Shown here: piece after piece, positions 9,495 to 17,645 of the stretch
Layout: each line of letters opens with the position of its first letter
Numbering within the stretch: position 1 is the first letter of the stretch
From: Indolivaga alginatilytica
Lineage (GTDB): Bacteria; Bacteroidota; Bacteroidia; Bacteroidales; Dysgonomonadaceae
DNA length: 64,000 nt
Direction: 5' to 3'
Assembly (NCBI RefSeq): GCF_003201355.1
Contig: NZ_QICL01000019.1
Coordinates: forward strand, 1-64,000
Notes under the pieces: generated by a model
The model's database searches: none
What the model saw: only the letters and a program-made list of their open reading frames with translations
What the model was told of the DNA's origin: nothing
Translations under genes and position numbers: made by a program

Positions 9495-9950
9495 ATGGTA
9501 CATCTAGTTTATTGTGATGATAAGGCAAAGGTCTTAGAAAAGATATTAAATGGAGAGAAAACAATGATTGTACGGGGTGCTGCAGGTCGAAAAATACCTC
9601 ATAGTCGGGTATTTGAGGGCGAAACCCTTTATTTTATGAAAAAGGGGTCTAAGAAAATCACAGCAAAAGCCATAGTATTGAATGTTGAAAATTTGGTAAA
9701 ACTAACAGATGCGGAAATAATTTCCACACTTGAAACGAATCAAGCAAAACTAAGGCTTACAGATAATCAAAAAGAACGATGGCATAAAAAATGTCTTTGC
9801 TTAATTGAATTTAAAGATGTTGAAGAAATTACCCCGTTCGACTTTGACCATCAAGGCAATATGGATGATTGGTTGATTATCGAAAAAATAGAAGATGTAG
9901 TTGTAGGTACAAGCAAACCATATAATTATGACAATAGTCGATTTAAATGA
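9495..9950 (+). CDS. ASCH/PUA-like domain protein
   Basis: 151 residues, soluble. An early LEKILNGEKTMIVRGA stretch, EGETLYFMKKGSKKITAKAIV and a late CLCLIEFKDVEEI strand fit the ASCH fold, a PUA-related beta-barrel that binds RNA or modified nucleotides. Such proteins are common in accessory gene sets. It precedes the nucleotidyltransferase-HEPN gene on the same strand, but that gene has its own promoter-like box. Family assignment is by pattern only. Confidence 0.55.
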   Translation: MVHLVYCDDKAKVLEKILNGEKTMIVRGAAGRKIPHSRVFEGETLYFMKKGSKKITAKAIVLNVENLVKLTDAEIISTLETNQAKLRLTDNQKERWHKKCLCLIEFKDVEEITPFDFDHQGNMDDWLIIEKIEDVVVGTSKPYNYDNSRFK

Positions 9951-9971
9951 AAACCATTAAAAATATCTCTT

Positions 9972-9979
9972 TACCTTTG
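9972..9979 (+). promoter_or_regulatory. Probable -7 box of the NT-HEPN gene
   Basis: TACCTTTG fits TAnnTTTG. Its position implies a transcript start near 9985, which lies after the upstream in-frame GTG at 9981 and so favours the ATG at 9999. Confidence 0.5.
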
Positions 9980-9998
9980 TGTGTATAATTCAATCAGA

Positions 9999-10874
9999 AT
10001 GAAGAGAAGCATTGCATATTTGCCGAAAAATAAACAACAAGATTTATATTTCATTATCAATGAGATAAAAAAGCGGTTGCCCCAAACTGAAATGATAATT
10101 CTATATGGCAGCTATGCAAGGGATCAATTTGTGGACTTTGACGAAAGGGAAGAATTTGGCATCATAACATCTTTTCGCAGTGATTATGATGTGTTGGTGG
10201 TAACAAGTGGAATATCTGATAAGAGTGCAGGGCAAAAACTCGACAATGTAGAAAATATCTATTACAAAGACCCCGAAGGTCAAACCCCTCTGCAATTTAT
10301 CAATGAGGATATTAAAACCCTGAATAAACTGATTGAAGAAGGTCGTTATTTCTATACGCAGATAAAACAGGAAGGTGTTATTCTGTATGATAGCGGAAAA
10401 CATAAACTTGCCCGTCGTCGTAAGCTAAACTTTGACGAAATAAGACAACAAGCTCAGGAATATTTTAATCAGAAATTTAGAAAAGCAAATGGCTTTTTTG
10501 ATGGAGTAGAGTTTTATTCGAGTAAAAAAGATTATCAACTTGCATCTTTTAATCTGCATCAAGCAGCAGAAAACTATTATCATGCTATCCATTTGGTTTT
10601 TACGTTAAAAGATACTAAGCAACACAATCTTTTCAAATTATCTTCATCCGTTAAGCACTATTCAACAGATTTGACAAAAGTATTTCCCCAAAATACAGCA
10701 GAAGAAAAACGTTTGTTCAATTTGCTCAAAGATGCGTATGTCGAAGCGAGATATAATGCTGATTTTCTGGTAACAAAAGAGGATATTGACGCTCTTATTC
10801 CGAAAGTGGAATTACTAAGGGATATTACAAAACAGATATGTGAAAAGAAGATTGCCGAGTATACACAAATGTAA
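9999..10874 (+). CDS. Nucleotidyltransferase-HEPN fusion protein
   Basis: 291 residues from the ATG chosen here. The N-terminal half is a minimal nucleotidyltransferase: LYGSYARDQ followed by SDYDVLVV gives the G-S and D-x-D metal-binding motif, with about 24 residues between them. The C-terminal half (from about 150) is a HEPN-type four-helix domain, with ASFNLHQAAENYYHAIHLVF and DAYVEARYNADF. In split form these domains make MNT/HEPN toxin-antitoxin pairs; the single-chain form is common in Bacteroidota and has no settled role. I see no perfect R-x4-6-H RNase motif, so toxicity is doubtful. The longer start (GTG at 9981) is disfavoured by promoter position. Confidence 0.8.
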   Translation: MKRSIAYLPKNKQQDLYFIINEIKKRLPQTEMIILYGSYARDQFVDFDEREEFGIITSFRSDYDVLVVTSGISDKSAGQKLDNVENIYYKDPEGQTPLQFINEDIKTLNKLIEEGRYFYTQIKQEGVILYDSGKHKLARRRKLNFDEIRQQAQEYFNQKFRKANGFFDGVEFYSSKKDYQLASFNLHQAAENYYHAIHLVFTLKDTKQHNLFKLSSSVKHYSTDLTKVFPQNTAEEKRLFNLLKDAYVEARYNADFLVTKEDIDALIPKVELLRDITKQICEKKIAEYTQM

Positions 10875-10901
10875 CAATCGACTCATTAAAAAAGCGGCAT
10901 A

Positions 10902-11663
10902 GTGGAATACTTAGATCAACTACTTATAATCTGCCCACTTATATTCATCAGTGGATTTATTGACAGTATCGCAGGCGGAGGAGGACTTGTATCACTACCT
11001 ACCTACAACATCGCAGGCTTATCGCCCCATTTTGCATTGGGGACTAATAAGTTCAGCAGTTGCATAGGAACGTTTTTCAGCACTATGCGTTTTGTGAAGA
11101 ACAAAAGCTACAATCTCACCAGTGCCATTCCCTCCATTATATTTGCGTTTATAGGATCGGCTATCGGATCAAAAATTGCGGTATGTCTGGATGCTAAAAT
11201 ATTACAGTATGTTCTAGTTGGCGGAATACCTGTAATTGCAGTCGTGATCTTCAAAAAGAAGGATTTATCGAATATCAAACCTCGAAAGCAGTCAAAAGCC
11301 AAAGTGATTATCTTATCATCCGTTATAGGCTTTGTGATAGGCGGATATGACGGTTTCTTCGGACCCGGAACGGGCACTTTCCTTATATTAGCTTATACTT
11401 CTATTTTAGGTTTCGACCTTTTAACGAGTATGGGTAATGCAAAACTAGTGAATCTCACATCCAACATTGCCTCTTTTATTGTATTTGCAATAGAGGGTAA
11501 AATTCTCCTCGCAATAGGAATCCCTGCCGCTTTGTGTGCCATTGCAGGGCATTATATAGGCAGTGGACTTGCCATCAAAAACGGGCAAAAGGTTATTCGC
11601 CCGATGCTGATATTCGTTCTCTCGTTACTTCTGATAAAACTGGTTTGGGATCTGTTCTTTTAA
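10902..11663 (+). CDS. TauE/SafE family membrane permease
   Basis: 253 residues with about seven to eight membrane helices. The family halves are visible: GFIDSIAGGGGLVSLP near residue 20, and GFVIGGYDGFFGPGTGTFL near 150. Both are the paired glycine-rich motifs of the TSUP (sulfite exporter TauE/SafE) family, which moves sulfur-containing or small organic anions. The start is GTG. It lies 27 bases after the NT-HEPN gene, but a functional link is not obvious. Confidence 0.88.
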   Translation: MEYLDQLLIICPLIFISGFIDSIAGGGGLVSLPTYNIAGLSPHFALGTNKFSSCIGTFFSTMRFVKNKSYNLTSAIPSIIFAFIGSAIGSKIAVCLDAKILQYVLVGGIPVIAVVIFKKKDLSNIKPRKQSKAKVIILSSVIGFVIGGYDGFFGPGTGTFLILAYTSILGFDLLTSMGNAKLVNLTSNIASFIVFAIEGKILLAIGIPAALCAIAGHYIGSGLAIKNGQKVIRPMLIFVLSLLLIKLVWDLFF

Positions 11664-11665
11664 AC

Positions 11666-12334
11666 TCAATATTTAAAAGATATATAGCTATAAAAAGCAT
11701 CTTTAATTACATCGTTTGCTTCGTCATGAAACGGTACGCACGATTCCAGTATATCACATAATTTCGGATCTTTCGATCTTATGAATGGAAAAGGATTGCT
11801 ATCAATTTCTTTTGTATTTATCTTATCAGCACATTCTTTCAAAAAAAACATGGTAGTAATTAGCTTTATCGTCCTGTACAAGATTTCTTTTCGCTCTATG
11901 GTATCAGATGCATTAACTTCCAGCAATCGATAAATCTCACCTTTTAAATCTCTTATCAGGCTCTTTCGGCTAATGCCCCTTCTCATCAACAGATTTATGA
12001 TTCTTTCCTTCAAATCTAAAATTAAATTTGAAGGGTCATAAATTATTTCCGACCTGTAAATAATCGAAATTGGAACAACGTCGTAATTATGCAAAAATAC
12101 CGAGTCGTTCTGTTGAAGAAATTGTCGCTGAAAAATAAAAATACTGATCCTTATACCTTTATAGATATATCCTATGTTATAGGAATTATGTATTGTTTTA
12201 CTCGAAAAAAGTATATCTATATCACTTTCTTTTTTGAATGTTCCATGAGCTACCGACCCCGATAAAGCAATAGAGGCGTCCGGAAAAGAATTGTGCAGGC
12301 ATTCCATTAATTCAGTTGCTATTTTCAGATGCAT
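11666..12334 (-). CDS. Minimal nucleotidyltransferase, RiPP-locus copy 2
   Basis: 222 residues. The N-terminal half carries the polymerase-beta-type motif LSGSVAHGTFKKESDIDIL (G-S-x10-D-x-D), and the C-terminal half is helical. It is homologous over its full length to the gene at 14534 (also 222 residues; shared GSVA, SDIDIL, EIIYD and DLK stretches). The third carboxylate expected on the strand IRISIFIF is not evident, so activity is not certain. Its start overlaps the stop of the small helical gene upstream by one base (TAATG), implying translational coupling. It is the last gene of the RiPP-like group. Its role could be peptide nucleotidylation, control of its partner, or immunity. Confidence 0.75.
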   Translation of the reverse strand: MHLKIATELMECLHNSFPDASIALSGSVAHGTFKKESDIDILFSSKTIHNSYNIGYIYKGIRISIFIFQRQFLQQNDSVFLHNYDVVPISIIYRSEIIYDPSNLILDLKERIINLLMRRGISRKSLIRDLKGEIYRLLEVNASDTIERKEILYRTIKLITTMFFLKECADKINTKEIDSNPFPFIRSKDPKLCDILESCVPFHDEANDVIKDAFYSYISFKY

Positions 12335-12681
12335 TATCGTAAAAATTTAATCGTTATTTCAGGATCTTGAAGGGAAAAGTATTCCTGTTGCATTTCTTCC
12401 AGCATTTTTTTCAACGGTTGTATGGCACTTTCCGATATTGGAACTTCCAGAATTTTTCTGAGTTCTTCCACATAAGCAGTATACTCCTGAGTTGCCCGTA
12501 TTTTTTTATAAAGATATAAAACGCCAACTTCCAGATAATACAGGAAATAACGAGACTCCATAGAGGATTGCTTTTCAAACAGTTCTAATATATTTTGGAC
12601 TATGAAAATTTCTCCATATCCATCTATACCTTCCGAAAGCAGTAACTGTTCATTTGATAGTAAGGCTATTATTCTCTCCAT
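12334..12681 (-). CDS. Small helical partner protein, copy 2
   Basis: 115 residues, almost entirely predicted helix, no signal peptide. Homologous to the 118-residue protein at 15202: both have LLSN near the start, then a Y-K-x-I segment, YxxYxEELRxxLE, and end with LR. It contains no His at all, which excludes the R-x4-6-H active site of HEPN RNase toxins. Coupled by a TAATG overlap to the nucleotidyltransferase downstream. I do not recognise a named family. The fixed pairing suggests that the two products form a complex. Confidence 0.65.
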   Translation of the reverse strand: MERIIALLSNEQLLLSEGIDGYGEIFIVQNILELFEKQSSMESRYFLYYLEVGVLYLYKKIRATQEYTAYVEELRKILEVPISESAIQPLKKMLEEMQQEYFSLQDPEITIKFLR

Positions 12682-12717
12682 AACTTTTAAATAAAAATAA
12701 TACCCTAAATGGTATTT

Positions 12718-12843
12718 AAGGTCTCAGACCTTTTTATTGCTTTGGTGTAGGGGTGAATCTATGTGTTCACCCATCTGTATCGGGCTGACACATAGGTCTG
12801 CCCCTACGACTAAAAATATAGCATTAAATATTTTGTATTACTT
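12718..12843 (+). repeat. Dispersed intergenic repeat with nested insertion
   Basis: The head AAGGTCTCAGACCTTTTTAT and TGCTTTGG are present, and the tail GCATTAAATATTTTGTATTA is present. The middle, normally TAAGCATAACAG to TTATAAT, is replaced by the 61-bp hairpin element at 12747-12807. It lies between the Kelch gene and the second small-protein gene of the RiPP-like group. Confidence 0.8.
12747..12807. mobile_element. 61-bp inverted-repeat element (MITE/REP-like)
   Basis: Starts GTAGGGG and ends CCCCTAC. Inner complementary blocks are CTATGTGT with ACACATAG and ACCC with GGG(C), so the whole element folds into one long imperfect hairpin with a loop near ATCTGTATC. A smaller hairpin, GGGTGAA/TTCACCC, lies inside. 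No coding capacity. A diverged relic with the same junction (TTTTGGTGTAGGGTTGAATC on the minus strand) is at about 19023-19121. Confidence 0.65.
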
Positions 12844-12844
12844 A

Positions 12845-14122
12845 TTATTGAAAATCGGGCACAAAATAAGATTTTGTTTTTTGCAGTTCATCGACATCTA
12901 TACTATAAAGATTGTCTGATGGCATCCTTAGATTTTCAACATATTCAAGTCCGCCGATAATATATAAAATACCATCTTTACAGACCATTTCACTATACAT
13001 CAAGTCCAGATTAATTCGATAGGCATACATTTTACCGGATTCTACCTCATAGGTGAAGAGTAAATCGTGCTCGTATATATATATGACTCCCTCATTATAT
13101 GCCAAGGCGGGTCTCTCCAGTCCATGGGGTAGCTTTCTTACCATTTTATATTCTCCCGTGGATATATTGTAAGTATTAATATACCTTATAGGAGCTTTTG
13201 AAAAACCTCCTATTTGATATAGAATACTATCGACAACAATACTCTTTGTCTCTTTGAAATAAGCCATGTCATCCAATTCATACCAATAACCTGTTTCCAG
13301 ATTAAATAGATGAACCTTGTTTGTTAATTTTTTGCCATTATTGTTTTTCTTTATCGAGCCTCCCATTACAATAAGATTGTCTTGGAACACAGAAGATGCA
13401 AAATTGACAGCAGGATGTGGATTTGTCTTACTCGAAGAGATAGTATTATGCTCTATATCATACACTTCAACTTCGTCATTCAAATATTCAAGTTTTGGAT
13501 TTTTTGCAAGTTTTTTCCCTCCAAGTATATAAATTTTCCCCTCATAATAATGAATATTATGATATGCTCTTTTTGAAAATTGCAAGTCCGAAGAATACCA
13601 TGTATCACTGTTTATATCATATATTTGCAGTTTATTACTGCTATATTCCCATCTGTAGTAATCAAAAAGTTCGTTTCTCACAGAGCTGTCACCCCCTATA
13701 AGATATATTTTATTACCTACAAGTGCAGCACCAAATGCAAAGACTCCATTTTTAAGCGGTGCCAATTTTTCAAATTGAATACTCTCCTGCAAATACGTTC
13801 TATCGCCAACAACGGTTACTTCAGCAAGCGATTCCGATTTAGGGAGCATGTATACAATCTTACTTTTTCTTAACTCGGACAAGGATACTATTTTGGTATT
13901 ATAACCCAGAAAAGAGAATGTCAAAGAGTCTTGTTCCGATAATGAGGAGAACTCTTGTTCCGAAAAAAATCCGTCATTGTCGGTTGTTACCCCTATCTTA
14001 TTAAATGACACACTTACCCCTGCCATAGGTGTTCTGAATACGCCGTCTACGACCTGCATTTTCTCTTGAGCTGTAATAGTGCAAATTGAGTATATAAGTA
14101 GTAAAGTTAGAAGGACTCTCAT
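12845..14122 (-). CDS. Secreted carboxypeptidase-regulatory/Kelch protein
   Basis: 425 residues. A signal peptide (MRVLLTLLLIYSICTITAQ) is followed by a CarboxypepD_reg-like domain (about 25-110; PMAGVSVSFNKIGVTTDNDG, SFLGYNTKIV), and then Kelch-type beta-propeller repeats. The repeats show the GGxx/IYxIGG pattern: NKIYLIGGDSS, GKIYILGGKKL, DNLIVMGGSI, DSILYQIGGFS, DGILYIIGGLE. About six blades are likely. It acts outside the cytoplasm. It sits in the RiPP-like group, right after the precursor and its terminator. Beta-propeller proteins near Bacteroidota peptide loci could be sensors or immunity/receptor factors, but this is inference. Confidence 0.75.
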   Translation of the reverse strand: MRVLLTLLLIYSICTITAQEKMQVVDGVFRTPMAGVSVSFNKIGVTTDNDGFFSEQEFSSLSEQDSLTFSFLGYNTKIVSLSELRKSKIVYMLPKSESLAEVTVVGDRTYLQESIQFEKLAPLKNGVFAFGAALVGNKIYLIGGDSSVRNELFDYYRWEYSSNKLQIYDINSDTWYSSDLQFSKRAYHNIHYYEGKIYILGGKKLAKNPKLEYLNDEVEVYDIEHNTISSSKTNPHPAVNFASSVFQDNLIVMGGSIKKNNNGKKLTNKVHLFNLETGYWYELDDMAYFKETKSIVVDSILYQIGGFSKAPIRYINTYNISTGEYKMVRKLPHGLERPALAYNEGVIYIYEHDLLFTYEVESGKMYAYRINLDLMYSEMVCKDGILYIIGGLEYVENLRMPSDNLYSIDVDELQKTKSYFVPDFQ

Positions 14123-14154
14123 AAGAATACAACTCTTATAAATTTTTATTCAGG

Positions 14155-14185
14155 AGAAAAAAAGGGTGAAACTTAATCCACCCTT
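14155..14185 (-). terminator. Terminator after the peptide precursor
   Basis: On the minus strand AAGGGTG pairs with CACCCTT, followed by a run of T (14155-14161). It lies 12 bases past the precursor stop codon and before the Kelch gene. This would let the precursor message end early and be more abundant than the downstream genes, as is common in peptide loci. Confidence 0.75.
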
Positions 14186-14196
14186 AGATTAATACA

Positions 14197-14523
14197 TTAA
14201 GTTCCCATTCTGGGGCACCAGTCATTTTCAGGACACCAACCGCTGAAATCCTGCATCCCTGTTCCAATGCTAACACAACTACCATTACCAGAGGGACCGG
14301 GAAGACCATTAGCTCCAACACAGTTACAACCATCGATTCCGCCACGATTTTCCTCGTAAGGACATATGGGATCTTCTGAACTTGAATCATACAAGGTTGT
14401 ACCACCCTTTATTTCCTGTAAGTCAGACTTACTCAAAACCTGCAGCCTCTCTTCAAGACCCATTTCACTACTAAACTCAGCTTTTGCTAAATTTAGAGAG
14501 ATCATCTCTTTTTTTTGTTTCAT
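14197..14523 (-). CDS. Gly-Gly leader RiPP precursor peptide
   Basis: 108 residues. Residues 1-41 are a leader rich in Lys/Glu and Leu, ending LSKSDLQEIKGG. That matches the Gly-Gly leaders of Bacteroidales natural-product precursors (TIGR04149-like) cleaved by bacteriocin-type peptidases. The predicted core (42-108) is Gly-, Asp/Glu- and Cys-rich, with six Cys at 54, 66, 68, 83, 97 and 103. It contains GxCxC and a near-tandem WCPENDWCPR end. The gene lies 10 bases after the nucleotidyltransferase gene and is followed by its own terminator. It is the presumed substrate of the radical SAM/SPASM enzyme encoded upstream. Confidence 0.8.
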   Translation of the reverse strand: MKQKKEMISLNLAKAEFSSEMGLEERLQVLSKSDLQEIKGGTTLYDSSSEDPICPYEENRGGIDGCNCVGANGLPGPSGNGSCVSIGTGMQDFSGWCPENDWCPRMGT

Positions 14524-14533
14524 AGTTTTCTGT

Positions 14534-15202
14534 TTAATAGTTTATAAAAATGTAGCTATCGATAGCTTTTTGTATCAGTTTAAATGAATTTTGATGACAG
14601 GGATAGCACGCTCGCAATATATTGTATAGTTCTATGTCTTTTTCTTTTATAATAGAATAAGGGTCTATAGCTTCCTTTTTTGTAAGAATTTTGCTACTGT
14701 ATTCTTTCAGAAAGAAAATCGAGATTATATTATTCAAGATAGCATATAACGATTCTTTGTGTTCTATACAGTCCGATTTTCTATTGCTTAACAGTTCCTT
14801 AATTTCACTTTTTAAATCACTGATAAGAGTTTTCTTTAAGAGTTTTTTTCTCAATAAAAGATCGTCGATCCGATCCTTTAAATCGATGATCAATTTGTCA
14901 GAATCATAAATTATCTGAGAATAATAGATGTATCCGATTCGCAAATTTTGATAGTAGTAAAGCAAATCCAAGCTCTTCTGCCAAAATATTTTTTTATGAT
15001 ATGAGAATATACCTATCTTAATATCCTTATAATAGCCGTATACATAATACGAGTTCGTAAAGTCTTTATGCGAAACCAGAATATCTATGTCGCTATTTTC
15101 GTTATAAGACCCGTTTGCGACTGATCCGGTCAAAGCAATCGAGAGATCAGGGCAGGCAGAATGAAGATAGTCGATAATTTCCGTAGCTACTTGTTTGTGC
15201 AT
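14534..15202 (-). CDS. Minimal nucleotidyltransferase, RiPP-locus copy 1
   Basis: 222 residues, paralogue of the gene at 11666. The motif LTGSVANGSYNENSDIDIL contains the G-S-x10-D-x-D metal site; the rest is helical (LLLRKKLLKKTLISDLKSEI). As in the paralogue, the strand expected to carry a third acidic ligand (IKIGIFSYH) lacks it. Its ATG overlaps the stop of the upstream small gene (TAATG). It sits directly before the precursor gene, between maturase and substrate. A role in peptide modification, or in regulating its small partner, is plausible. No such role is established for this family. Confidence 0.75.
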   Translation of the reverse strand: MHKQVATEIIDYLHSACPDLSIALTGSVANGSYNENSDIDILVSHKDFTNSYYVYGYYKDIKIGIFSYHKKIFWQKSLDLLYYYQNLRIGYIYYSQIIYDSDKLIIDLKDRIDDLLLRKKLLKKTLISDLKSEIKELLSNRKSDCIEHKESLYAILNNIISIFFLKEYSSKILTKKEAIDPYSIIKEKDIELYNILRACYPCHQNSFKLIQKAIDSYIFINY

Positions 15203-15558
15203 TATCTCAAATTTTTTATAACTATACCAACAGTATCCGTATTGATAAAAAAATCAGTTTGCATTCTTTTTAAGAGTGCTTCCAGCAATAATATTACATT
15301 ATCCGACATCTGCTGCTCCAAAAGACATCTCAATTCTTCAGCATATAATTGATATTTAGGCATGCTCTTTATTTGTTTATAAAAAGCGATCACCGCAGTC
15401 TCAATCTGGCAGAAAGAGAAGTTGGTATCTAAAGATTCTCTCCTTCCGATTAGTCGTAGAATACTCCTGATTTCAAAATTCTCATTATAGCCTGTAGCAT
15501 TATTGATCAATAAATCATCGTTCGATAATAATCGAGCCAATATTGATAATTCTTCCAT
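15202..15558 (-). CDS. Small helical partner protein, copy 1
   Basis: 118 residues, all helical in appearance, no signal peptide, no His residue. Homologue of the protein at 12334. The start codon is three bases after the radical SAM stop codon, and the end overlaps the nucleotidyltransferase start, so three genes are tightly coupled. The absence of His rules out a canonical HEPN RNase. It could be an adaptor that brings the leader peptide to an enzyme, but it does not resemble the PqqD-type recognition element. Function unknown. Confidence 0.65.
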   Translation of the reverse strand: MEELSILARLLSNDDLLINNATGYNENFEIRSILRLIGRRESLDTNFSFCQIETAVIAFYKQIKSMPKYQLYAEELRCLLEQQMSDNVILLLEALLKRMQTDFFINTDTVGIVIKNLR

Positions 15559-15561
15559 CGG

Positions 15562-16917
15562 TCATATCTGGTTATAATTTTCCTTAATGGTTTCCTGATA
15601 CAGGTTTTTTACGAGGGAGTTAAACACCTGAGGGTATTGATTACAATTACCGGGGCGAATTCTTTTTTTACTTTTTAGTGATCTGATAACACATCCGCCT
15701 CCACAAAAAAGAACATATTTACATTTAATACACTTGTATCCGCTGATCTTATCATCAAACCACTTCTGATATCCTTCTTCTGATATTTCCAGATCAGGAA
15801 TATAGCTTCCAACCTTATGCTCAGGTTGTCCCACCACATCCCAACAGGAGTACAAATCACCCACCGGGTCAAAAATCAAACTACTAACCTGTGCACCACA
15901 GAAATAACCTTTATATTTCACATCCTTACCCAGTATCATGTTGTTTAGAATGGAAGATATCCCATAATCCTGACATGAAAGCTTAGAAGAAAGGTTTCCA
16001 GTTGCTTTTTGCTCCTGAAAAGAACTCATTAGATCCAATTGATTTATTTGAGGTTTCTCGCCCTCAGCCGGTGCTGCTCCCGAGTCTATGTCATCTCTCA
16101 AAAGAGCCCAGTACGCACTGAAATTTTCATAACCATACCAGCCTTTAGCTTCGAAAAGGCTCATTAATTCATTCATCTTGGTTAAAGAGTATTCACTTGT
16201 ATTTATTCTTAAACGTATAGTGATTCCCAACTTTAACAGATGGTCAATATTATTGGTAATTTTCTCAAAAGAGTCTTTATTCTTAAAGTGCGGCCTGTTT
16301 CGGTTTTGTATCTCTTCAACACCATCTAATGTGATTTGAAAGTGAAATAAATTACTATTCTCTTTTAAAAGATCAAAATAAGCGTCAATATCATATCCGT
16401 TTGTGGGAGCATAAAATGTGAAATTACATTTTTTACCTTTCTCTATAATATAAGATACAAGATCATAATTTTCAGCAAGAAACGGCTCGCCTCCATATAA
16501 CCCGATTACCTGTGTACATTGCTTATTTTCATATTTCTCATAGATAATATCAAAAGCTCTGTCAATTTTGTCTTTTGTTATTTTGTCTTTTGATGGACAT
16601 TTTGATGTATTTAACACTTCTTTTTCAAAACAATAAACACATCTGAGGTTACAGTCATACGACATGATAAACTGGAAGTTATATTTTTGGAATCTTCTGC
16701 TGTCATGAACTCCATCAGTTATACGTTTGATCAGTTCTAATTCCTGATCTTCTGTCAAGGAAGTCAGATACCCTCTCTTCACTAATTTACTCAAAGTGTT
16801 ATCAGAAACATTCTCTGTGCTTTTCCTTTTGAGGTAATCGTAAACATCCTTATTTATGATATCAAATGCATGTGTATAGCCATTCATTATAGCATACGTA
16901 TCTTTATCTACATTCAC
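15562..16917 (-). CDS. Radical SAM/SPASM peptide maturase
   Basis: 451 residues. The radical SAM cluster motif C-x3-C-x2-C is at C89, C93 and C96 (YDCNLRCVYCFE), and GLYGGEP is the SAM-binding glycine motif. The C-terminal SPASM domain is complete: FCGAQVSSLIFDPVGDLYSC, then KCIKCKYVLFCGGGC and a last Cys in GNCNQ, enough for two further 4Fe-4S clusters. The N-terminus (YAIMNGYTHAFDIINKDVYDYL) resembles peptide maturases of the Bacteroidales Gly-Gly precursor systems. The start is GTG, because an in-frame stop lies three codons upstream; ATG at residue 11 is an alternative. It heads the operon and probably makes thioether or C-C crosslinks in the precursor. Confidence 0.88.
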   Translation of the reverse strand: MNVDKDTYAIMNGYTHAFDIINKDVYDYLKRKSTENVSDNTLSKLVKRGYLTSLTEDQELELIKRITDGVHDSRRFQKYNFQFIMSYDCNLRCVYCFEKEVLNTSKCPSKDKITKDKIDRAFDIIYEKYENKQCTQVIGLYGGEPFLAENYDLVSYIIEKGKKCNFTFYAPTNGYDIDAYFDLLKENSNLFHFQITLDGVEEIQNRNRPHFKNKDSFEKITNNIDHLLKLGITIRLRINTSEYSLTKMNELMSLFEAKGWYGYENFSAYWALLRDDIDSGAAPAEGEKPQINQLDLMSSFQEQKATGNLSSKLSCQDYGISSILNNMILGKDVKYKGYFCGAQVSSLIFDPVGDLYSCWDVVGQPEHKVGSYIPDLEISEEGYQKWFDDKISGYKCIKCKYVLFCGGGCVIRSLKSKKRIRPGNCNQYPQVFNSLVKNLYQETIKENYNQI

Positions 16918-17114
16918 GATATATTATACGAGGAAGTTCTCATTGTGCTAAATTTAAGTTTTGTAAAACGTGTTAAATCATGCCTTCCGGAAAAGGCCAT
17001 TAGATTACAATAATATTAAAAAAAGAAATGGAAGACAACTCTCGATAAGAAAAACAGCATTTATTTTTCTTTTTTTTGCATTATCAGGACAAATAATACA
17101 TTCTTTTAGTTACC
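16918..17114. other. Intergenic region upstream of the RiPP-like operon
   Basis: About 200 bases without a gene. TAAATTTA at 16949-16956 could serve as a weak -7 element for the maturase gene on the minus strand. I see no clear -33 box. Confidence 0.3.
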
Positions 17115-17645
17115 TCAATATTTTCTTTCGACATATCCCATCATAGCTTCCAACCTCTTTATATAAACGTGGAGAATATACAATGGAATAATACCAAATA
17201 CACCAAAAGAACAATCGATAACTCTCCAGAAAAAAGGAATCTGTCTGATCTCACCGCAAATCAAAGCCAAAGGGATAACAGCTATGCAGGCAATCATTGC
17301 AAAATGAACAATCCATATATTCTGAACAGGCTTCCTGTAAAGACCAATAAACGCTATTGCAATAATAACATGAGCAAATGCCAGCCAATCATAACCATAA
17401 GCCAGGAAAGGATAATCACGATTTGTATTCACCAAAGCATTATATACCTTAGCTATCCAATACTGTAATCCCGTATAGTTATCTATAGGAGCGTCGTGCG
17501 ATATCCCCAATAGACTACAGGCAATTCTCATCTCAGTTTCTAAAGGGAAAGCCGTTATTCCTGAAACAACAAGCGCGAAAATAAAAAAGATTATAAGCAG
17601 CCGTATTCTTTTAAGAAGTAGTTTCTCTTCTGTGTTTGTATCCAT
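17115..17645 (-). CDS. Hypothetical membrane protein, 176 residues
   Basis: Five hydrophobic segments: IIFFIFALVVSGITAF near 15-32, a less hydrophobic central one, and three towards the C-terminus, including VIIAIAFIGLY and FAMIACIAVIPLALICG. A charged N-terminus (EEKLLLKRIR) and a basic C-terminal tail. I do not recognise a named family. It ends 200 bases upstream of the maturase and is on the same strand, so it may or may not belong to that group. The start ATG is clear. Confidence 0.6.
   Translation of the reverse strand: MDTNTEEKLLLKRIRLLIIFFIFALVVSGITAFPLETEMRIACSLLGISHDAPIDNYTGLQYWIAKVYNALVNTNRDYPFLAYGYDWLAFAHVIIAIAFIGLYRKPVQNIWIVHFAMIACIAVIPLALICGEIRQIPFFWRVIDCSFGVFGIIPLYILHVYIKRLEAMMGYVERKY

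Follow-up and report, generated by a model that had tools for sequence, protein, structure and literature searches.

A window of 64,000 nucleotides from the Indolivaga alginatilytica contig NZ_QICL01000019.1 (positions 1 to 64,000) carries on its minus strand a cassette in which genes for a radical SAM/SPASM maturase and a Cys-rich precursor with a Gly-Gly (GG) leader flank a co-transcribable pair of genes for a small helical protein and a nucleotidyltransferase (NTase), and the same set is kept in a second locus. By gene content it is very likely that the locus is a cassette for a ribosomally synthesized and post-translationally modified peptide (RiPP), and its sequence marks it as a probable new subfamily. 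Our explanation as a whole, namely that this is a RiPP cassette of a new subfamily whose helical protein and NTase work on the peptide as a complex, is given a probability of about 0.5.

The initial annotation had described seven minus-strand genes in a row as one candidate system, and all seven open reading frames are present: the maturase (15562..16917; 451 residues from a GTG start), helical-1 (15202..15558; 118 residues, predicted all-helical), NTase-1 (14534..15202; 222 residues, nucleotidyltransferase fold), the precursor (14197..14523; 108 residues), a Kelch beta-propeller protein (12845..14122; 425 residues), helical-2 (12334..12681; 115 residues) and NTase-2 (11666..12334; 222 residues). 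The first four genes are separated by 3, -1 and 10 nt, the helical-1 stop overlapping the NTase-1 start by one base, while gaps of 74 nt and 163 nt precede the Kelch gene and the second helical-NTase pair (pair 2), respectively. A terminator-like hairpin followed by a T-run lies 3' of the precursor (14162..14185, minus strand), and an imperfect repeat hairpin (12747-12807) lies between the Kelch gene and pair 2. Owing to these tight gaps and the two hairpins, the predicted unit is a four-gene cassette of maturase, helical-1, NTase-1 and precursor, and the idea of seven genes forming a single system is not supported as put; the row is split at 14185-14162 and at 12747-12807. Terminator-like sites number four on both strands of 11500-17200 (shuffled mean 2.4, standard deviation 1.8), and the half-site of the repeat hairpin occurs across the genome 48 times in forward and 51 times in reverse orientation with up to two mismatches (0 for a reversed-pattern control). 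The precursor is as had been proposed, with a 41-residue leader (14401..14523) that ends in Gly-Gly at residues 40-41 and a 67-residue core containing six cysteines (14197..14400, stop included); it matches no Pfam or NCBIfam family above cut-off, and a second copy was not found in the genome.

The maturase matches the radical SAM family (Pfam, 4.1e-15) and the SPASM domain (TIGR04085, 51.1 bits, cut-off 27), and combines in one protein the radical SAM motif CX3CX2C (residues 89-96) with the SPASM motifs CX(9-15)GX4C and CX2CX5CX3C. It passes no curated maturase-family cut-off among the 25 NCBIfam matches listed, the best of which by E-value, PapB (NF047865), scores 105.3 bits and thus falls below its threshold of 340.

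An independent cassette came from a profile scan of IMG/VR, which revealed one contig (L072) with a full-length NTase that is 48% identical. Its gene order is that of the window's cassette, with a maturase (468 aa, 56% identical), a helical protein (117 aa, 35%), the NTase and a GG precursor (80 aa), and the gene spacing is also similar. The leaders are identical at 24 of 41 positions and the cores are 39 and 67 residues long, such that the precursor adjoining the maturase has a conserved leader and a variable core, although both cores have the C-terminal pattern GW..D.CP.M.T. The linkage of maturase, helical protein, NTase and GG precursor proposed in the initial annotation is therefore repeated with the same four genes in the same order, and the assignment as a RiPP-type locus is supported. 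Rather than lying away from radical SAM genes, the sole other helical-NTase pair found sits between the maturase and the precursor of L072. Five scans of IMG/VR, for which helical, maturase, precursor and NTase profiles served as the four query types, all led to the L072 contig and to no other. Phage-like genes, including a DNA methyltransferase, begin at position 9332 of L072, approximately 1 kb past the precursor, which would place this cassette at or near a prophage edge; in a check for prophage cargo the NTase query matched no phage record, and no tRNA marking an edge was found.

NTase-1 and NTase-2 both match NTP_transf_2 (Pfam 8e-10 and 1.9e-8) and are 45.0% identical over 222 codons, with helical-1 and helical-2 38.6% identical over 114, which bears out the duplication of these modules. 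Codon positions 1 and 2 differ less than position 3 in all eight gene pairs compared; synonymous sites are near saturation yet protein identity is kept, which indicates that both helical-NTase pairs are under coding constraint. An AlphaFold model of the NTase (mean pLDDT 87.1, pTM 0.81; two of the five models above 84 and three near 68) is predicted to have an ANT(4')-like fold, its best structural matches being the ANT(4') structures 6p06 (E 1.5e-7, TM 0.55, rmsd 7.2) and 1kny (E 7.1e-7, TM 0.54), with HalB structures ranking next. The hGS and DxD motifs of the NTP_transf_2 superfamily are present in the palm fold (GS at 26-27 and DxD at 38-40 in NTase-1; both kept in NTase-2). GS and DxD are invariant in all five sequences compared, which comprise the three cassette copies (NTase-1, NTase-2 and L072) and two lanthipeptide-linked relatives (L028 and L078). 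Active NTP_transf_2 enzymes carry a third metal-binding acid on the following strand. At this site, which was read from the sequence alignment and a predicted strand at 61-68 rather than from coordinates, all three cassette NTases have Lys, Arg or Pro (Lys 62 in NTase-1, Arg 62 in NTase-2), whereas both lanthipeptide-linked copies have Glu or Asp.

The lanthipeptide-linked relatives stand out when 28 fetched loci are scanned in all six frames with cassette-protein profiles, of which the NTase profile was made from the three cassette NTases. This profile scored above 70 bits in L072 (397.8, by construction), L078 (81.1) and L028 (72.1) only; eight further loci gave 20.8-36.0 bits, which is the range of generic minimal NTases. 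The L028 and L078 proteins, whose host genera differ but belong to a single family within the same phylum, align over about 195 of the 222 positions. Their clusters contain LanB (in two parts), LanC, ABC, HlyD and S8 genes, and the NTase gene lies directly after LanC, 15 nt (L028) or 125 nt (L078) before a precursor. All three full-length NTase relatives found are thus within 125 nt of a RiPP precursor. The L028 precursor and two of the three L078 precursors score above the pinensin-leader cut-off, while the L078 precursor directly after the NTase has no such score. Because the other full-length relatives lie in lanthipeptide clusters, the NTases appear to constitute a rare RiPP-associated family that spans two RiPP classes, namely radical SAM peptides and class I pinensin-type lanthipeptides. 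The pinensin-type cluster of L078 (3759-12758) has a methyltransferase gene between two of its three precursor-like genes.

Wider searches underline the rarity of the family. NTase-1 found no relatives in 84 stretches of the genome contigs collection and none in plasmids; in 199 relatives there were two genomes with a match, namely its own and one with a weak minimal nucleotidyltransferase (MNT). Matches in 395 genomes of the phylum were restricted to its own genome and G582, and a search of 196 relatives of G582 gave two with an NTase match. An NTase match (E up to 1e-3) was found in 24 of 395 genomes of the class, with just one of the 26 places outside its own genome covering more than 100 profile positions, and 117 genomes of the G219 family gave 0 matches. 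A further profile, A3, searched against at least 582 stretches of the genome contigs, yielded seven loci among the matches listed, all weak; the neighbours of three (L065, L069 and L071) were inspected.

NTases linked to C39 genes in L055 and L071 were at first considered as family members and then demoted to a lead, since with the cassette profile they score 20.8-24.4 bits, no better than the 22-36 bits of generic minimal NTases; a five-row NTase profile also missed the L055 protein at 1e-6. These loci (L055, 9381-14425; L071, from Mucilaginibacter, 9947-15108) encode proteins of 532 and 554 residues with an N-terminal NTase domain, followed by C39-ABC and HlyD-like genes. The NTase genes are divergent from larger proteins that have a short leader and a Gly-rich stretch, which are a DUF6973 protein in L055 and, in L071, a couple of proteins whose leaders are nearly identical. 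The L071 protein also has two weak relatives on Bacillota plasmids, with no RiPP genes among their annotated neighbours, which speaks against tying NTases in general strictly to RiPPs.

Helical-1 and helical-2 match no Pfam or NCBIfam family above cut-off, and the helical-1 model is poor (mean pLDDT 70.6, with values below 50 for 36 of 118 residues) and retrieves nothing from the PDB at E up to 0.001. Leader-binding RiPP recognition element (RRE) proteins are winged helices with beta strands; the helical-1 model, at the low confidence just given, is all-helical and contains no strands. The helical profile matched L072 only among the 28 fetched loci, with no match in L028 or L078, and in 393 genomes of the order it found its own genome and four matches (E 0.005-0.008), all with internal stop codons. 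The LanC-like proteins of L028 (5424-7754) and L078 (8135-10426) are extended at the C-terminus by approximately 340 residues, for which Pfam offers no matching family. A relationship of the helical protein to these tails was rejected, with profile comparison probabilities of 0.1 and 0.3% and a BLASTP E-value of 0.65.

In the pathway proposed, the maturase would recognise and bind the leader and introduce cross-links or other modifications at cysteines of the core. The helical protein would associate with the NTase-fold protein, and their complex would either transfer a nucleotidyl (or related) group to the peptide or hold the peptide in a nucleotide-dependent manner. After removal of the GG leader, one of two C39-ABC transporters would export the product in trans, and pair 2 could be a second copy that has diverged and perhaps serves in self-protection or at a second site. 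That the pair acts on the peptide and not on another target is in our judgement an even bet, while true nucleotidyl transfer as the nature of this action is rather doubtful: replacement of the third acid by Lys, Arg or Pro in the cassette copies makes plain nucleotidyl transfer harder to argue for. The broader proposal that a portable helical-NTase module, common to RiPP classes that are otherwise unrelated, produces radical SAM peptides that are nucleotide-decorated or nucleotide-derived, with the cassette branch using unusual chemistry in which the third acid is replaced, is speculative and a good deal less than probable. On the sequence evidence, the helical-NTase pair may serve in tailoring, in peptide handling as a carrier, or in immunity.

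Immunity or detoxification, where the pair would modify or sequester the mature peptide in the producer by analogy with the inactivation of drugs by aminoglycoside nucleotidyltransferases, is unlikely. In its favour, the nearest solved folds are ANT(4') aminoglycoside nucleotidyltransferases, the L028 and L078 NTases weakly match ANT(4')-I (E 8.6e-5 and 6.6e-5, far under cut-off), and the extra pair 2, which has no precursor beside it, would fit. Against it speak the missing third acid in the cassette NTases and the position of the NTase gene, which in the two cassette loci is flanked by maturase and precursor genes and in the lanthipeptide clusters adjoins the precursor, a location equally usual for tailoring genes. 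The same loss in all three cassette copies, with retention in both lanthipeptide-linked ones, could instead point to a pseudo-enzyme, a non-catalytic NTase that together with the helical protein serves as a peptide carrier or maturase assembly factor. We consider this improbable too, as the invariance of GS and DxD suggests that nucleotide and metal binding are still selected.

That a toxin-antitoxin or defence pair, of the MNT/HEPN type VII or Hailong-like kind, lies in a RiPP locus by accident is a slim prospect. The small helical gene does overlap the NTase gene, and MntA (19.3 bits against a cut-off of 60), PDC-S09 of PADLOC (24.3 bits) and the HalB structures are weakly matched, but the MntA and PDC-S09 matches span the generic GS/DxD region only, and two loci have the pair enclosed by maturase and precursor genes. 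Type VII MNT/HEPN systems have an RX4-6H motif in the helical partner, which is absent in all three helical proteins. Assignment as a HEPN/MNT pair was rejected on the lack of this motif, and assignment as a defence system on the generic nature of the matches. A chance neighbourhood, with an NTase pair unrelated to the peptide, is scarcely credible even though this rare family offers few cases, namely a single independent cassette plus the two lanthipeptide clusters, as order and tight spacing are kept at protein identities of 56, 35 and 48% and every full-length NTase relative (3/3) is beside a RiPP precursor.

Several observations weigh against the explanation we favour, that of a new-subfamily RiPP cassette whose helical-NTase complex acts on the peptide. 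Just one independent cassette locus was found, and with the third metal-binding acid replaced, catalysis by the cassette NTases is doubtful as judged from the alignment. In an 8-row tree the window and L072 maturases pair at 100/100, and the next relatives are those of L015 and of a Muribaculaceae plasmid (support 91/94, not starred), where Cys-containing small peptides adjoin the maturase; the L015 contig and the plasmid, scanned whole, gave no NTase or helical match. Since these sister maturases lack such matches, the helical-NTase pair appears to be a trait of the cassette branch and not of the wider maturase group. The maturase N-terminus may also be frameshifted in this genome. Codons for MRTSSYNIS are found in another frame at 16914-16943 (minus strand), just upstream of the GTG at 16917, and the L072 maturase begins MRSSSYNIAV, relative to which the called window maturase is approximately nine residues shorter; the start could reflect an internal GTG, a sequencing error or a broken frame. 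Finally, the cassette has no transporter, and no C39-ABC gene lies in the cluster. C39 peptidase matches are on contigs 1, 3 and 37, with none on contig 19, which holds the window. Two of them, in frames of 738 and 736 residues, are near radical SAM genes and small GG-leader peptides, and we infer that one of these two C39-ABC transporters, both encoded outside the cassette's contig, exports the product in trans.

Contigs 1 and 37 of the same genome each carry a further GG-peptide locus (L086 and L087, respectively) that includes radical SAM and C39-ABC genes, with a row of four small peptides in L087. The mobilizable Muribaculaceae plasmid CP061010.1 (L100, 18.8 kb) encodes a 47-aa Cys-containing peptide and an M50-like protein beside its sister maturase. 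Within the window, an NTase-HEPN fusion (9981-10874, plus strand; HEPN E 2.3e-12) is encoded on the strand opposite the cassette and is outside the cassette NTase family. A foreign base composition was discarded, as the GC content of the cassette (0.345) is unremarkable against a mean of 0.359 over 266 slices, 58 of which are equally low.

The Kelch protein has Pfam and NCBIfam Kelch support, a signal-like N-terminus and a CarboxypepD_reg-like domain. Relatives (E up to 1e-30) occur in four of 100 related genomes searched besides its own, at five places, and none of the three cassette profiles (NTase, helical and maturase) matched the stretches fetched there, so the Kelch gene is probably a bystander. 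Pair 2 has no precursor beside it. The proposal that the Kelch gene and pair 2 belong to a conserved system was not upheld: the stretches fetched around Kelch homologues lack cassette gene matches, and pair 2 was found only here.

The initial annotation knew of no described system that pairs such maturases and precursors with NTases. This stands for the set itself, as we recognised no paper describing a maturase-helical-NTase-precursor cassette, in a searched literature that included few subscription journals. It does not stand for NTases in general, which are reported as neighbours of RiPP genes in lasso and daptide clusters and in LanC clusters of Kordia (PMC9266682, PMC10036551, PMC11118758). 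Such genes have been noted in several RiPP classes, mostly without a known role. In one lasso cluster, knock-out of PsmN, which is reportedly linked to hexose addition on phosphorylated Ser, changes the product (PMC9266682), daptide accessory genes include nucleotidyltransferases and radical SAM enzymes (PMC10036551), and a nucleotidyltransferase family gene occurs in lasso clusters according to PMC13289728. The lasso and daptide cases resemble the cassette in having an annotated nucleotidyltransferase gene in a RiPP cluster, but belong to other RiPP classes, and the PsmN effect is hexose addition. LanC and a nucleotidyltransferase are reported around Kordia precursors (PMC11118758).

In Bacteroidales, radical SAM enzymes, GG-motif precursors and C39 transporters co-occur, as PMC10352776 reports. 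The cassette shares with those clusters a SPASM maturase, a GG-leader precursor and C39 transporters in the genome, but differs in its helical-NTase pair and in having no C39 gene of its own; the term 'nucleotidyl' is absent from the main text of that paper. PapB-type ranthipeptide maturases (NF047865) likewise combine radical SAM and SPASM domains with a Cys-rich core, whereas the cassette maturase scores 105.3 bits against their cut-off of 340. ANT(4') enzymes (6p06, 1kny) are the best structural matches of the NTase model, but at 11-12% identity and an rmsd of about 7, with the third acid missing from the cassette copies. The four-gene set is small enough to be rebuilt in the laboratory, which would allow a direct test of peptide nucleotidylation against an NTase fold that carries or neutralises the peptide, and the helical-NTase pair suggests an as yet unexplored route by which peptides modified by radical enzymes are decorated, handled or neutralised. 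In the pinensin-type class I clusters of L028 and L078, an NTase from this family (72 and 81 bits, respectively) is found just before a precursor. These use LanB/LanC chemistry instead of radical SAM chemistry (LanB and LanC are not among the ten open reading frames scanned around the window cassette), have no match to the helical partner and keep the third acid. One NTase family thus links two chemically unrelated RiPP classes, and the cassette version has a helical partner of its own.

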